This document shows positions 1 to 6,742 of a stretch of 64,000 nt of DNA, piece by piece. Where the stretch lies: NCBI RefSeq assembly GCF_945957345.1, contig NZ_CAMFKW010000031.1, positions 1-64,000 of the forward strand, given 5' to 3'. Position 1 is the first letter of the stretch, and every line of letters begins with the position of its first letter. The notes under the pieces were generated by a model. The model worked only from the letters and a program-made list of their open reading frames with translations. It ran no database searches and was not told the DNA's origin. A program made the translations under genes and the position numbers. Source of the DNA: an uncultured Allobosea sp. (GTDB taxonomy: Bacteria > Pseudomonadota > Alphaproteobacteria > Rhizobiales > Beijerinckiaceae).

Positions 1-1245
1 GCGCCGGCACAAACGCAGGCGCTCCACTGGATGGTTTTCTCACCGCCGTGCACAGAGATTGATGGGAAGCCAAGAGCTTACATTATTGACGCGCTTCGAC
101 ACCCGGCAGAAGTGAAGCTTTTAAGAAAATTATATCAAGATGCTTTCTTTTTGGTGGGTGTCGTTTGCGATCCAGATGTAAGGGAAGCTAGGTTAATCAA
201 CGAGCTTTACGAATTTTCGGAAAGAGGTCAGACAGCCACAAAAGACGCTGTAGTCTCTTTCATGGAGAGGGACGCTGATGCACCCGAGAAACACGGGCAG
301 CACGTTCTTGACACATTTCATGAGGCTGATTTTTTCGTAGATAATTCTGAGAACTCTTCTGGAGGAGCTCAGAATACACATATGAACGAATCTTTGAGGA
401 GGTTTGTGGATTTAATTATATCTGATCGTGTTATTCGTCCCAGCGTTTCTGAGACTGCAATGTATCACGCACATGCGGCAAAACTTCAGAGCGCCTGTCT
501 TTCTCGTCAAGTCGGCGCTGCACTTATTGACGATGGTGGCAATATTATCGCCGCCGGAACAAATGAGGTCCCTAAAGCTGGGGGTGGGGTCTATGGCGAA
601 GTTGACGATCTGTCCGGCGATGATGAGCGGTGTGTGTTTAGGGCAAGCAAATATTGCAGTAACAATAGAGAGCAAAATGATATTATAACCGATCTTTTTG
701 ATAAGTTTCCATCCATGCTGGATGGGAAGACGAGGGAAGACGCATTCGCTGCGGTTCGAAGCACTAAAATCGGTGGTCTCATCGAGTTTAGTCGAGCGGT
801 TCACGCTGAGATGGATGCTATTATATCTGCTGGGCGTATTGGGGTTTCGACTGTAGGTTCTCGGCTCTATGTTAGTACGTTTCCGTGCCATTATTGTGCG
901 CGACACATAGTAACGGCTGGTGTTTTTGAGGTTCATTATATCGAGCCATATCCTAAAAGCCGCGCGTTGGCCCTTCATTCAGATTCCATAACTGTTGATC
1001 GTAAGGAGTATGAGGATATAAATCAGAAGTCTAACGAGAAAAAAATTGGAAAAAGGAAGGTTTTATTTACTCCATTTGTTGGAGTTTCGCCCCGAATGTA
1101 TGCGGTAATGTTTCTGAAGGATCGCGATTATAAAAATAAACTTACGGGAGAATATTTCCTTGGCAAGCCGGACTGGGGTGGTCAGGCCGAGGTTTTTCAG
1201 GTACACTACTCAGAGTTGGAAGAACAATTGGCGGCGGTCGAGTAA
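1..1245 (+). CDS. Anti-phage dCTP/dCMP deaminase (AvcD/DCD-type), 5'-truncated by window edge
   Basis: Frame stays open from base 1 (APTQALHW then MVFSPP...). Zinc deaminase motifs HAEMDAI and PCHYCARHIV; CLSRQVGAAL and GTNEVPKAGGGVY; upstream YIIDALRHPAEVKLLRKLYQDAFFLVGV typical of the region after a P-loop domain in this family. Confidence 0.85.
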   Translation, partial: APAQTQALHWMVFSPPCTEIDGKPRAYIIDALRHPAEVKLLRKLYQDAFFLVGVVCDPDVREARLINELYEFSERGQTATKDAVVSFMERDADAPEKHGQHVLDTFHEADFFVDNSENSSGGAQNTHMNESLRRFVDLIISDRVIRPSVSETAMYHAHAAKLQSACLSRQVGAALIDDGGNIIAAGTNEVPKAGGGVYGEVDDLSGDDERCVFRASKYCSNNREQNDIITDLFDKFPSMLDGKTREDAFAAVRSTKIGGLIEFSRAVHAEMDAIISAGRIGVSTVGSRLYVSTFPCHYCARHIVTAGVFEVHYIEPYPKSRALALHSDSITVDRKEYEDINQKSNEKKIGKRKVLFTPFVGVSPRMYAVMFLKDRDYKNKLTGEYFLGKPDWGGQAEVFQVHYSELEEQLAAVE

Positions 1246-1757
1246 TGGGGCGAGAATCTATTGGTATAGTAGATTTTTCTACTACATTTAACGACCGAGA
1301 TCTTGATTCTGCTGAAGCTTTGCCTCAGCAGCTTTCGTTGTTCGACTGCTTTCCGCAGAAGGTTGTGACTTTTATGTCGATGCATGAAATGCATGGATCG
1401 ACTTTTTTTCGTGTTCTCGACCAGGCTGATCGACCAATTATTATCGATATTCGTGGTTATCCTTTTTTTGATATGGGCGGTGTGAGGCGAGATATAGTAT
1501 CGTCTTATTTTGCCAGAAATAATTATCCGTATAAACATGCTCCGATTAGCATGATTAGAGGAAATGATAGTAGGGATAGGTGGAATATGAGAAGTAAGGT
1601 TGTAGATATATTTAAGGATATGGATAGATTTTTTGATATCGAAAGTAAATTTGCTTTGATGCTGGTTGATAATTTTGAAGATGCGCTCATGATGATCAGT
1701 TATGCAAAAAGTATAGACTCAATTTCTAGGGATTATCGATTTTCTGTTGTGCGTTAA
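1245..1757 (+). CDS. Small protein of unknown function, weakly DUF488-like, translationally coupled to the deaminase
   Basis: 170 aa ORF, AT-rich like the deaminase; TAATG stop/start overlap at 1243-1247. The segment RPIIIDIRGYPFF...YPYKHAPI resembles the DUF488 core (lvDvR..P...Y.h.p). Confidence 0.6.
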   Translation: MGRESIGIVDFSTTFNDRDLDSAEALPQQLSLFDCFPQKVVTFMSMHEMHGSTFFRVLDQADRPIIIDIRGYPFFDMGGVRRDIVSSYFARNNYPYKHAPISMIRGNDSRDRWNMRSKVVDIFKDMDRFFDIESKFALMLVDNFEDALMMISYAKSIDSISRDYRFSVVR

Positions 1758-1896
1758 TTTCTCTGATCTAGAGAAGGGTAAGGATTTCCACGACCGCCCC
1801 TTCCGCTCTAGCTTACGCCTTGCGCGATTTCGATCGCTTCCTGCTCGATGCGCGGTGAAGATCGGAGCGGTTCGGGAGCCTTTGGCTGGTCTGCCC

Positions 1897-2394
1897 TCAA
1901 CCCCCGTCGAAAGCCGCGTGGTAGCGCACCGTGCCGGCCGGTAGCGCTGCGCCGAAACCGAGGCGCATGAAGTACTCCTGCGGCACGCCCTCCAGCACCA
2001 GCGCGGGATCGTTGGCGAAGCCGAAGCGGCCGTAATAGGCGGGGTTGCCGAGCAGGACGCAGCCGGCGGCGCCCATTTCGCGCAGGCGCCGCAGGCCCTC
2101 GCGGATCAGGCCCGAGCCGATGCCGCCGCGCTGCCGGCCCGGCTTCACCGAGACCGGCCCGAGCCCGAACCAATCGCATTCCGCCCCGTCGATCGTCACC
2201 GGCGAGAAGGCGACATGGCCGACGATCTCTCCATCTTCGACGGCGACGAGCGAGAGCGTCAGTGCTCCGGCCGCGCGCAGGCCGTCGACGATCGCCGCTT
2301 CGGTACCGCTGCTATGCGGCGCCGTCGCGAAAGCCTCCGTGGTCAAGGCGCGGATTGCATCGGTATCGGCGGGCTGTTCGGGTCGGATCGACAT
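1897..2394 (-). CDS. GNAT family N-acetyltransferase
   Basis: MSIRPEQPADTDAIRALTTEAF...LGPVSVKPGRQRGGIGSGLIREGL..GNPAYYGRFGF. Start chosen at 2394 with an RBS-like purine stretch; the upstream ORF extension is repeat DNA. Confidence 0.85.
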   Translation of the reverse strand: MSIRPEQPADTDAIRALTTEAFATAPHSSGTEAAIVDGLRAAGALTLSLVAVEDGEIVGHVAFSPVTIDGAECDWFGLGPVSVKPGRQRGGIGSGLIREGLRRLREMGAAGCVLLGNPAYYGRFGFANDPALVLEGVPQEYFMRLGFGAALPAGTVRYHAAFDGG

Positions 2395-2457
2395 GCTGTC
2401 TCCTCTGGCGACGTTATGCCATGCCGATGTCCCGGCGGGGAGCTGCATGGGATCTGC

Positions 2458-2550
2458 CGTCATGCTCGGGCTTGTCCCGAGCATCCACGTCTGGATACGC
2501 CTTGGATGCGCGAAGACGTGGATGGTCGCCACAAGGGCGACCATGACGGG
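2458..2550. repeat. Palindromic repeat family A, copy 1
   Basis: GCTCGGG-cttgt-CCCGAGC ... GGTCGCC-acaag-GGCGACC nested in a larger inverted repeat with CACGTC/GACGTG. Confidence 0.85.
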
Positions 2551-3076
2551 CAGCGCTCCCTCAGCGAAAACTTATCCCCGCCTCTTCAACCACGCCTATC
2601 CTGGGCTCACCTCACCCCGAGGGGCGGCCATCCGGAGGCATGCTGCATGGCGGGGTGGGGGCGGCGCCCTGCGGCCGGGTTTGCACCCCGGACTCGGGAG
2701 GCTGCGGGAACCGCCCTGGGGGTACTATGGCCCCTGCGCGAGGAGCCTCGCTAGGAGAGGCGGCGCGGCGGTGGCAAGGCGGCAGGCTCGCGACGACCCG
2801 TTGAGGGAAGCTGGCGCGTCCTGTCCGTCCGCGATCGACGCTCCGCCCAACGGAAGCGCGGCCCGCAGCTTTCAAGAACGCCGACAAGCGGAGCGCCACG
2901 GGGCGTGCGGATGGTGGCTCAATCCATCCGCGCCGCATCCTGGCTCAACGGAAGCGGCCGATACCCCGCGCCTCGCGGCGCTCCGCTGCCCCTCGTCATC
3001 CACCAACGCCCGCGCGCGAGCCGGGCGGTCGAACACCCATGAGCTTTCACGCAGGCGCGCGATGCAGGAGCGGATC

Positions 3077-3409
3077 ATGGCGAGGCTGAACTGGCAGACG
3101 CCGGAGCAGGCGCAGTGGCAGGCGGATTACGAGGCCCGGCGGGCCCGGCAATATCGCAGCCTGGTGGACCGGCTGGAGATCTGGGCGTTCTGCCCGCGCA
3201 AGGGCTGCCAGCGGCAGAACAGCTGCGGCAACGAGCGGCCGTCGCTCTGTCTGAGCGCCTTCTTCGTGACGATGCCCGAAGATCTCAAGCAATATGTCCG
3301 GCTCGTGATCACCGCCCGGAGCGCCGGCGCGAGCCCCGCCGACGCCGATCGGATCGCCTGCGAGCGCATGATCGCTGTCGACGGCTGCACGCCCTTCGAC
3401 GGGCTCTGA
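3077..3409 (+). CDS. Hypothetical protein with Cys cluster (CPRKGCQRQNSCGNERPSLC)
   Basis: 110 aa, RBS-like GCAGGAG upstream of ATG; possible zinc-binding Cys spacing. Confidence 0.6.
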   Translation: MARLNWQTPEQAQWQADYEARRARQYRSLVDRLEIWAFCPRKGCQRQNSCGNERPSLCLSAFFVTMPEDLKQYVRLVITARSAGASPADADRIACERMIAVDGCTPFDGL

Positions 3410-3442
3410 TACGCGGGCGCTGAGAGTGTTCTGGAAACCTCC

Positions 3443-3568
3443 ACAGCCCTCATCCTGAGGAGCCATTTCGTCAGAAATGGCGTCTCGAAGGAGGTTCCAG
3501 GAGGCTCGGATGCCCACTGGAATATCCTTCGAGACGCCGCTATCGCGGCTCCTCAGGATGAGGGCTGT
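3443..3568. repeat. Palindromic repeat family B, copy 1 (intergenic)
   Basis: ACAGCCCTCATCCTGAGGAGCC ... GGCTCCTCAGGATGAGGGCTGT long inverted repeat with internal GGCGTCTCGAAGG/CCTTCGAGACGCC. Confidence 0.9.
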
Positions 3569-3584
3569 GTTTCCACGCGGTCGC

Positions 3585-4034
3585 TCAGGCCGCGACGGCG
3601 AGCTGCGTGTCGAGCTTGCGGATGGCGGTGCTGAGCTCGGGCTCGTCGACGAGATCGGCGGCATCGGCGAGCTTGAACCAGTGCAGGTCGCGCTGGTGCT
3701 GCTCGGCCCAGCTGTCGAGCTGCCTCTCGACCTCGAGCAGGTAGAGCTTCACCTCGCAGAGCGCGAAATGGTCGCTCATCCGCTTCCAGTAGGTGTAGCG
3801 CCCGGCCGGCTTCTCGCTGACGCGGCCGACGACGCCGGCCTCCTCATAGGCCTCGCGCGCGGCGGCGTCGCGGTCCTTGACGCCCTTCATCGGCCAGCCC
3901 TTGGGCACGATCCAGCGGCGCGTGGTGCGCGAGGTCACGAGCAGGATCTCGGTCGAGCCGTCGGCGGCCTGGCGGATCGGCATGGCGGCGATCTGCGACC
4001 GCTTCTCCCCCGGTTTCCGCTTGGCCTTCTTCAT
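3585..4034 (-). CDS. NUDIX hydrolase
   Basis: GWPMKGVKDRDAAAREAYEEAGV NUDIX box; start chosen at MKKAKRK. Confidence 0.85.
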   Translation of the reverse strand: MKKAKRKPGEKRSQIAAMPIRQAADGSTEILLVTSRTTRRWIVPKGWPMKGVKDRDAAAREAYEEAGVVGRVSEKPAGRYTYWKRMSDHFALCEVKLYLLEVERQLDSWAEQHQRDLHWFKLADAADLVDEPELSTAIRKLDTQLAVAA

Positions 4035-4154
4035 CGCCGCTGAACGCTCCTGTTCCCCTGCACATTCGTCCGGACTCGAATCACAGATGTTCGCCGGAGC
4101 GAATAAATATTGCATCGATTTGCCGAAATGGAAGAGGCGTTCCGCGGAATCGCA

Positions 4155-5366
4155 TCAGGTCTTCGTTTCGCGCATGCCTTGGTTGTGGACATCTTCCGGT
4201 TGCGCGAGCCGCAGCAGCAGCCAGCCACCGATGCCGGAGAGCAATGAGCCGGCGAGCACGCCGATCTTGGTCTGGTCCTGCAGCGCCTCCGAGGCGGGGA
4301 AGGCGAGCAGCCCGATGAACAGGCTCATGGTGAAGCCGATGCCGCAGAGCAGGGCGATGCCGTAGAACTGCGTCCAGGAGGCTTTCGCAGGGAGGTCGGC
4401 GAGCCCGGCGCGGATCGCGAGCCAGCCGAAGCCGAAGACGCCGATCTGCTTGCCGAGGAACAGCCCGAGCATGATGCCGAGCGGCACGGACTGGCCGAGC
4501 GTCGCGAGGCCTAGCCCGGCGAAGGAGACGCCGGCATTGGCGAAGCCGAAGATCGGGATGATCAGGAAGGCGACATAGGGGTGCAGGCCGTGCTCCAGCC
4601 GGTGCAGCGGCGAGGAAGCGCTGTCGGGCTTGGCGGGCGAGGGCGTGAGCGGGATTGTCAGTGCCAGAGCGACGCCGGCCAAGGTGGCATGCACGCCGGA
4701 TTTCAGCGTGAAGTACCAGAGCGCCGCGCCCAGCAGCAGATAGGGCGCAAGCCTGGCCACGCCGAGCCGATTGAGTGCGACGAGCGCGGCGAGCGTCGCG
4801 GCGGCAAGGCCGAGACACAGGCCGGAAAGCTCGGCGGTGTAGAAGATCGCGATGATGATCACCGCGCCGAGATCGTCGAGGATGGCCAGCGCCGTGAGGA
4901 AGATCTTGAGCGAGGCCGGCACGCGCGAACCCAGCAGCGAGAGCACGCCGAGCGCGAAGGCGATGTCGGTGGCGGCGGGGATCGCCCAGCCGCGCAAGGT
5001 CTCCGGCGAGCCGAGATTGAAGCCGACATAGACCAGCGCCGGCGCGATCATGCCGCCGAGCGCAGCGAAACCGGGCAGCACGCGGCGGCTCCAGCTCGAG
5101 AGCTGGCCGTCGAGCATCTCGCGCTTGATCTCGAGGCCGACGAGCAGGAAGAACACCGCCATCAGCGCGTCGTTGATCCAGTGCAGGACCGAAAGCCCGA
5201 GCACATAGCTCTTGAGAAGGCCGAAATAGAGCGGTGCCGCCGGCGAGTTGGCGACGAGGAGGGCGAGCGCCGCGACGACCATCAGGACGATGCCGCCCGC
5301 CGCTTCGCCGTGCAGGAAGTCCCGCAAGGCGGAAAGGGGTTTCGTCCGGGTCGCGGGCGCGGCCAT
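4155..5366 (-). CDS. nhaA: Na+/H+ antiporter NhaA
   Basis: [56 protein letters not shown]. Confidence 0.95.
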
Positions 5367-5449
5367 CAAGCTCTCCTTCGTCGATCAGACGCAAAGAGAT
5401 ACGACAGGCCGCCGCCGAGGACCAAGTTTGCCGGTGACGCAGCCCGGAT

Positions 5450-5836
5450 TCAGAGCTTCTTGCCGTCCTTGTCGAACTGCTTGAGGAAGGCGGTCAGGTC
5501 CTTGATCTCCTTCTCGCCCTTGATACCGGCGAAGATCATCTTGGTGCCCGGGATCTTGGCCTTGGGGTCCTTGATGTACTCGGCGAAGGTCGCCTCGTCC
5601 CAGGTCAGGCCGGAGCCCTTGTTGGCGGCCGAGTAGCTATAGCCCTCGACGGCGCCGGAATGCCGGCCGATCAAGCCGTTGAGCTCGGGCCCGACGAGAT
5701 TGCGCGCGCCCTCGCCGATCTGGTGGCAGGCACGGCATTTGGCGAAGGAGCGCTCGCCCGCGGCGGCGTCCTGCGCCGCGGCCGGCTGCGCGAGGAGGGG
5801 AAGGAGGAGGACAAGGCCGGAGAGAATGGCTCGCAT
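5450..5836 (-). CDS. Cytochrome c (class I, c2/c550-like)
   Basis: Signal peptide, CRACH haem motif, PGTKMIFAGIK distal Met motif. Confidence 0.9.
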   Translation of the reverse strand: MRAILSGLVLLLPLLAQPAAAQDAAAGERSFAKCRACHQIGEGARNLVGPELNGLIGRHSGAVEGYSYSAANKGSGLTWDEATFAEYIKDPKAKIPGTKMIFAGIKGEKEIKDLTAFLKQFDKDGKKL

Positions 5837-5926
5837 GATCACGTCTTTCGACTTGGAGGCATTCTCAGCTTAGCGTCGAGTCGCATGGCGATGGCATGAG
5901 CCATTTCGCCGCGCCGGCGAGCTCTT

Positions 5927-6742
5927 TCAGAGTTCGCCGATCCATTCCGCCACGGTCGCGGTGAAGGCGTCCGGCCGCGAGATCGGGAAGAGATGTCCGC
6001 CGGTTTCCATGATCGCGCGGCGGCAGCCGGGCAGGGCGGCGGCGAGCGCCTCCTGGTGGTAGACGGGTACGACCATGTCGTCGCGCGTACCGAGGATCAG
6101 CACCGGCATCATCAGCGAGTCGATATCGGCCGTGCCATCGAAGGCGAGCAGGGCGTCGAGGCGCTCGCGGGCGATCGTCCGGGCATGCTCGCTCACCGGC
6201 GCGGCCTCGATCGCGGCGTCGTAGATGTGCCAGTTGGCTTCGATCCAGCGCGGCTGGTAGCCGCTGAGCACCGAGGTCGCGGCATAGGCATGGGGGTCGC
6301 AGCCGAGGATGGCGCGCCGCGCACCGAAGACGGCGTTGAGATAGCGGCCGGATTTCAGCCAACTCGCGCTCAGGATCAGGCCGTCGAGCCGGCCGGGCGC
6401 GAGTTTGGCGATCGCCTGCGCGATACAGCCGCCGGTCGAGTGGCCGAGCACGACAGCCCGTGAGACGCCGGCCGCGTCGAGCACCGCGAGGCTGTCCTGC
6501 GCCAGCGTTTCGATGGTGCAGGGCGCTTCGCCGCGCGTGCTGGCGCCGATGCCGCGCTGGTCGAAGCGGATGACCTCGAAGGAGCGCGAGAGCGTCGCGG
6601 CGATGTCGCTCCAGAAGGCGGCGCTGCCGCTCAGCCCGCTGACGAGCAGCAGCGGCTGGCCGTGCCCTTCCTTGAAGGCGTGCAGCGTGGCGCCGTCCGG
6701 CGTCTCGATCTTGAAATCGACGATGTCAGTAGTAGCCGTCAT
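5927..6742 (-). CDS. Alpha/beta fold hydrolase
   Basis: GHSTGG nucleophile elbow, FDQRGIGAS, GGHLFPISRPDAF. Confidence 0.85.
   Translation of the reverse strand: MTATTDIVDFKIETPDGATLHAFKEGHGQPLLLVSGLSGSAAFWSDIAATLSRSFEVIRFDQRGIGASTRGEAPCTIETLAQDSLAVLDAAGVSRAVVLGHSTGGCIAQAIAKLAPGRLDGLILSASWLKSGRYLNAVFGARRAILGCDPHAYAATSVLSGYQPRWIEANWHIYDAAIEAAPVSEHARTIARERLDALLAFDGTADIDSLMMPVLILGTRDDMVVPVYHQEALAAALPGCRRAIMETGGHLFPISRPDAFTATVAEWIGEL

Follow-up and report, generated by a model that had tools for sequence, protein, structure and literature searches.

In the stretch of DNA analysed here (the window), which covers positions 1 to 64,000 of contig NZ_CAMFKW010000031.1 (GCF_945957345.1) from an uncultured Allobosea sp., two AT-rich genes lie one behind the other at the very start of the contig, both on the forward strand. 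The first open frame (1..1245) encodes the C-terminal 414 residues of an anti-phage dCTP deaminase, an enzyme that starves viruses of a DNA building block. It matches the dCTPase model of PADLOC (E 1.9e-135) and Pfam dCMP_cyt_deam_1 (E 1.2e-14), and both zinc motifs are intact: HAE (residues 268–270 of the open frame, codons from nt 802) and PCHYC (residues 295–299, codons from nt 883). Because the window begins at base 1 of its contig, the 5′ part of the gene is cut off; relatives have the N-terminal P-loop domain, but a search of the same genome with the N-terminal half of a relative gave nothing convincing, and the deaminase can be described from its C-terminal part only. The second gene (1245..1757) encodes a protein of 170 residues. 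The stop codon of the deaminase (TAA, 1243–1245) and the start codon of the second gene (ATG, 1245–1247) share one base in a TAATG overlap (1243..1247), from which translational coupling is inferred. The GC content is 0.46 for the deaminase and 0.37 for the second gene, compared to 0.67 for the rest of the window, which suggests horizontal acquisition. An Rfam search of positions 1–6000 of the window returned nothing.

The 170-residue protein, hereafter the partner, contains an N-terminal tail and a core. In an AlphaFold2 model built with 69 family members (mean pLDDT 86.5), the tail (residues 1–37, 1245..1355) is predicted to be disordered, with pLDDT of 50–61 in residues 1–30 and no secondary structure before residue 39. 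Different from the tail, residues 39–170 (1359..1754) form a confidently predicted α/β core, with pLDDT mostly above 90. The window protein alone gives no Pfam hit; however, the family is distantly related to DUF488. Ten of 69 members hit PF04343 (best E 1.4e-10), hhalign gives a probability of 96.8% with E 2.6e-10, and profile searches work in both directions. Of the residues that are invariant in the DUF488 sequences compared, the partner keeps D (65 of 70 members), R (70 of 70) and Y (68 of 70), corresponding to D68, R70 and Y96 in the window, whereas T, G, S, both Cys, Glu, His and the last Arg are no longer conserved. Compared to DUF488 proteins of the TIGH/TIGY type, both the Thr-Ile-Gly entry motif and the C..E..CHR motif are lost, and CHR is absent from all 70 members. 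One weak hit was to DUF488-N3i, a related Pfam subclade that is named inactive. The partner is therefore DUF488-like, and it is most likely not an enzyme of the DUF488 type. The family profile found no sequence match in the PDB, and a Foldseek search gave no confident PDB match, only weak phosphatase-like and Rossmann-like neighbours.

To investigate whether the gene pair recurs, we first searched with the partner alone. Owing to the divergence of the family, single-protein searches of genome contigs and phages found nothing, and a search of plasmids gave one locus; however, the closest deaminases had a similar ORF directly behind them. We then collected deaminases by deaminase similarity only, without regard to the neighbour, which gave 80 genome loci and 36 viral-contig loci (loci are numbered with the prefix L). 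Sixty-six of the 80 genome loci have a recognizable partner directly 3′ of the deaminase and a 67th (L100) was found by profile; three of the viral contigs have it too. In most loci the partner start overlaps the deaminase stop by 4 or 8 bases. On a tree of 135 deaminases, the partner is present in 71 of the 77 rows of one supported clade and in none of the 58 rows outside it, which requires few changes on the tree. One of the eight rows labelled as hybrid in that tree (L076; see below) is cut by its contig end and was labelled by likeness only. The distance matrices of partner and deaminase correlate (Mantel r = 0.73, 68 pairs, 0 of 2000 permutations). Conversely, in a separate sample of 399 genomes from the phylum, the partner profile has five hits below 1e-30, including that of the window, and all five lie next to a deaminase; of the weaker hits, those inspected were ordinary DUF488 proteins. 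Hosts include Pseudomonadota, Acidobacteriota, Myxococcota, Nitrospirota and Bdellovibrionota. This clade-wide association rejects a chance neighbour. The six rows of the clade without a partner form one branch, made up of Roseomonadaceae and one viral contig. In this Roseomonadaceae branch (L089–L091, L093 and L095), a small protein starting MIHV(L/V)AxITAKPG, monooxygenase-like by eye, follows 59–106 bases downstream.

The N-terminal tail of the window protein carries the peptide QLSLF (residues 29–33, 1329..1343). QLxLF/QLSLF is the established consensus for binding the bacterial sliding clamp, validated also with an alphaproteobacterial clamp (PMC4549789), and the form QL(S/D)LF is given in PMC9690074. 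Clamp binders use both a pentapeptide and a hexapeptide form. Across 70 family members, QL[SD]LF occurs in 9 tails (0.01 expected from shuffled sequences), QxxLF in 31 (0.8 expected), and either QxxL[FL] or the hexapeptide QLx[LF]x[FL] in 51 (2.3 expected, maximum 8 in 200 shuffles); only three occurrences were found in the much longer cores. The broad pattern was fixed after the family had been inspected, whereas the exact published consensus was not, and the exact counts are therefore the cleaner evidence. About a quarter of the tails lack a strict match, and some have none recognizable (L062, L088). As a control, we asked whether all dCTP deaminases carry such a peptide in a small 3′ ORF. 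This was not supported, as the pattern is not enriched in small ORFs next to deaminases outside the clade (4 of 72, 1.6 expected). Like transposases, polymerases and other clamp-binding proteins, the partner has the motif in a disordered tail; different from them, the motif lies N-terminally rather than C-terminally, and in a defence protein, where clamp binding is inferred from sequence alone. A second conserved tail segment, LRLV, has no known role.

In eight loci, the partner module forms the N-terminal ∼180 residues of a longer protein whose remainder is TIR-APAZ-like. These loci are from Bradyrhizobium (L046, L092), Sphingomonas (L055), Sphingopyxis (L094), Neorhizobium (L070), two uncultured proteobacteria (L052, L057) and a Rhizobium gallicum plasmid (L008). 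Those scanned against PADLOC matched TIR-APAZ at 1e-108 to 1e-133, and L092 matched SPARTA subunits in the PDB (8j8h, 8fex) at about 1e-58; the others were assigned by sequence likeness. A protein of ∼500 residues follows with a 4-base overlap. The R. gallicum one is a class I short pAgo (2.5e-173), and the others share its sequence pattern. In Neorhizobium huautlense, the partner module, TIR, APAZ and short pAgo are all joined in one chain of 1136 residues (L070:5173–8580), with pAgo at 9.5e-174. Compared to SPARTA (short pAgo and TIR-APAZ), these deaminase–SPARTA hybrid operons have an extra N-terminal module, with the clamp-type peptide and DUF488-like core, and an upstream dCTP deaminase. 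The window itself contains neither TIR-APAZ nor short pAgo.

A preliminary description of the sequence had reported an ORF overlapping the deaminase stop, of the same AT-rich composition, weakly resembling DUF488 but without its C-terminal Cys motif, and all of these observations were confirmed. Its interpretation, an obligate partner (regulator, inhibitor or second effector) in a two-gene variant that differs from the RNA-controlled AvcI–AvcD, is supported only in part. The recurrence of homologues next to deaminases, the absence of which had been named as a refutation, supports a conserved, apparently translationally coupled partner of one deaminase clade, in a two-gene arrangement distinct from single-gene and AvcI-type loci. 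Due to the Roseomonadaceae branch and one viral-contig relative that lack the partner, 'obligate' is slightly too strong. A role as regulator, inhibitor or second effector, and a replacement of RNA control, remain conjectural. AvcID, a type III toxin–antitoxin system, is controlled by an RNA (PMC10511110). The region upstream of the window's deaminase lies outside the contig; the upstream regions of two relatives folded no better than shuffled sequences, which is weak evidence against an AvcI-like RNA. The clamp-type peptide and the fusions to TIR-APAZ and short pAgo, which point to an adaptor, had been missed. Our literature searches, which covered open-access papers only, found no description of a deaminase–DUF488 pair or of a deaminase–SPARTA operon.

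Taken together, these observations tentatively favour, at somewhat less than even odds, a model in which the partner is a non-enzymatic adaptor. In this view, the disordered tail would dock on the host DnaN sliding clamp through QLSLF, and the degenerate DUF488-like core would hold the effector, which is the deaminase made from the same transcript or, in the fused versions, TIR-APAZ. This would place the effector at replication forks, where dCTP is used and, for SPARTA, where single-stranded target DNA appears, and could tie activation to phage takeover of replication; docking may activate, localize or restrain the effector. The analysis establishes the conserved gene pair, its co-inheritance, the motif, the degenerate core and the fusions, while binding to the clamp, binding to the deaminase, localization at the fork and the trigger are inferred. 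Moreover, the fusions fit any domain that binds the deaminase, not only a clamp tether. If the model is right, the dCTP-deaminase defence gains a protein partner with a putative binding site, such systems may watch or occupy the replication fork, and a dead DUF488 domain gains a candidate role as adaptor; the hybrid operons join nucleotide depletion to SPARTA. A broader reading, possible but less likely, is that of a portable replisome-docking module that serves two unrelated immune effectors, the nucleotide-depleting deaminase and the Argonaute-guided TIR NADase SPARTA, so that both act at, or are triggered by, replication forks.

The main rival, which we consider less likely, is a protein antitoxin. 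The partner would bind and silence the deaminase in uninfected cells, replacing the AvcI RNA, and the clamp peptide would serve as sensor or release trigger when phage disturbs host replication. The tight coupling and co-inheritance, the AvcI/AvcD precedent of an inhibited deaminase (PMC10511110) and the absence of an unusual RNA fold in the two upstream regions are consistent with this. However, antitoxins often precede their toxin whereas this gene follows it, fusion to the N-terminus of TIR-APAZ with the deaminase still present is odd for a dedicated antitoxin, and the Roseomonadaceae branch keeps the deaminase without the partner. It is more doubtful that the QLSLF-type peptide is instead a conserved docking segment for the deaminase, with the partner as structural subunit or allosteric activator; although a disordered tail could fold on the deaminase and the LRLV segment lacks a known role, the family alternates between the pentapeptide and hexapeptide forms and matches the published clamp consensus exactly in nine members. 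Least likely is a second enzyme that processes nucleotides or DNA after deamination, because, despite the DUF488 homology and the conserved D, R and Y, the other invariant DUF488 residues are not conserved, no member has CHR and a related Pfam subclade is named inactive.

Eleven plasmid loci of other clades (E. coli, Klebsiella, Vibrio and others) show no DUF488 partner 3′ of the deaminase. In another deaminase clade, mostly from viral contigs, a different small ORF of about 50–80 residues with a conserved WPxWK segment follows directly (L115, L125, L126, L130, L138, L141 and L199). In L015, L016 and L017, the ORFs directly 3′ of the deaminase are 63–72 residues in length, end in REFGC or EKFGC and have an N-terminal Q..F.F segment. 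One viral-contig deaminase (L122) itself ends in KQPALFDA, a clamp-like peptide that could be due to chance. Both plasmid copies, L007:9796–12089 and L009:758–3021, lie near an operon of a ThiF adenylyltransferase and multiubiquitin and near an ImmA/IrrE peptidase gene, a likely shared defence island.
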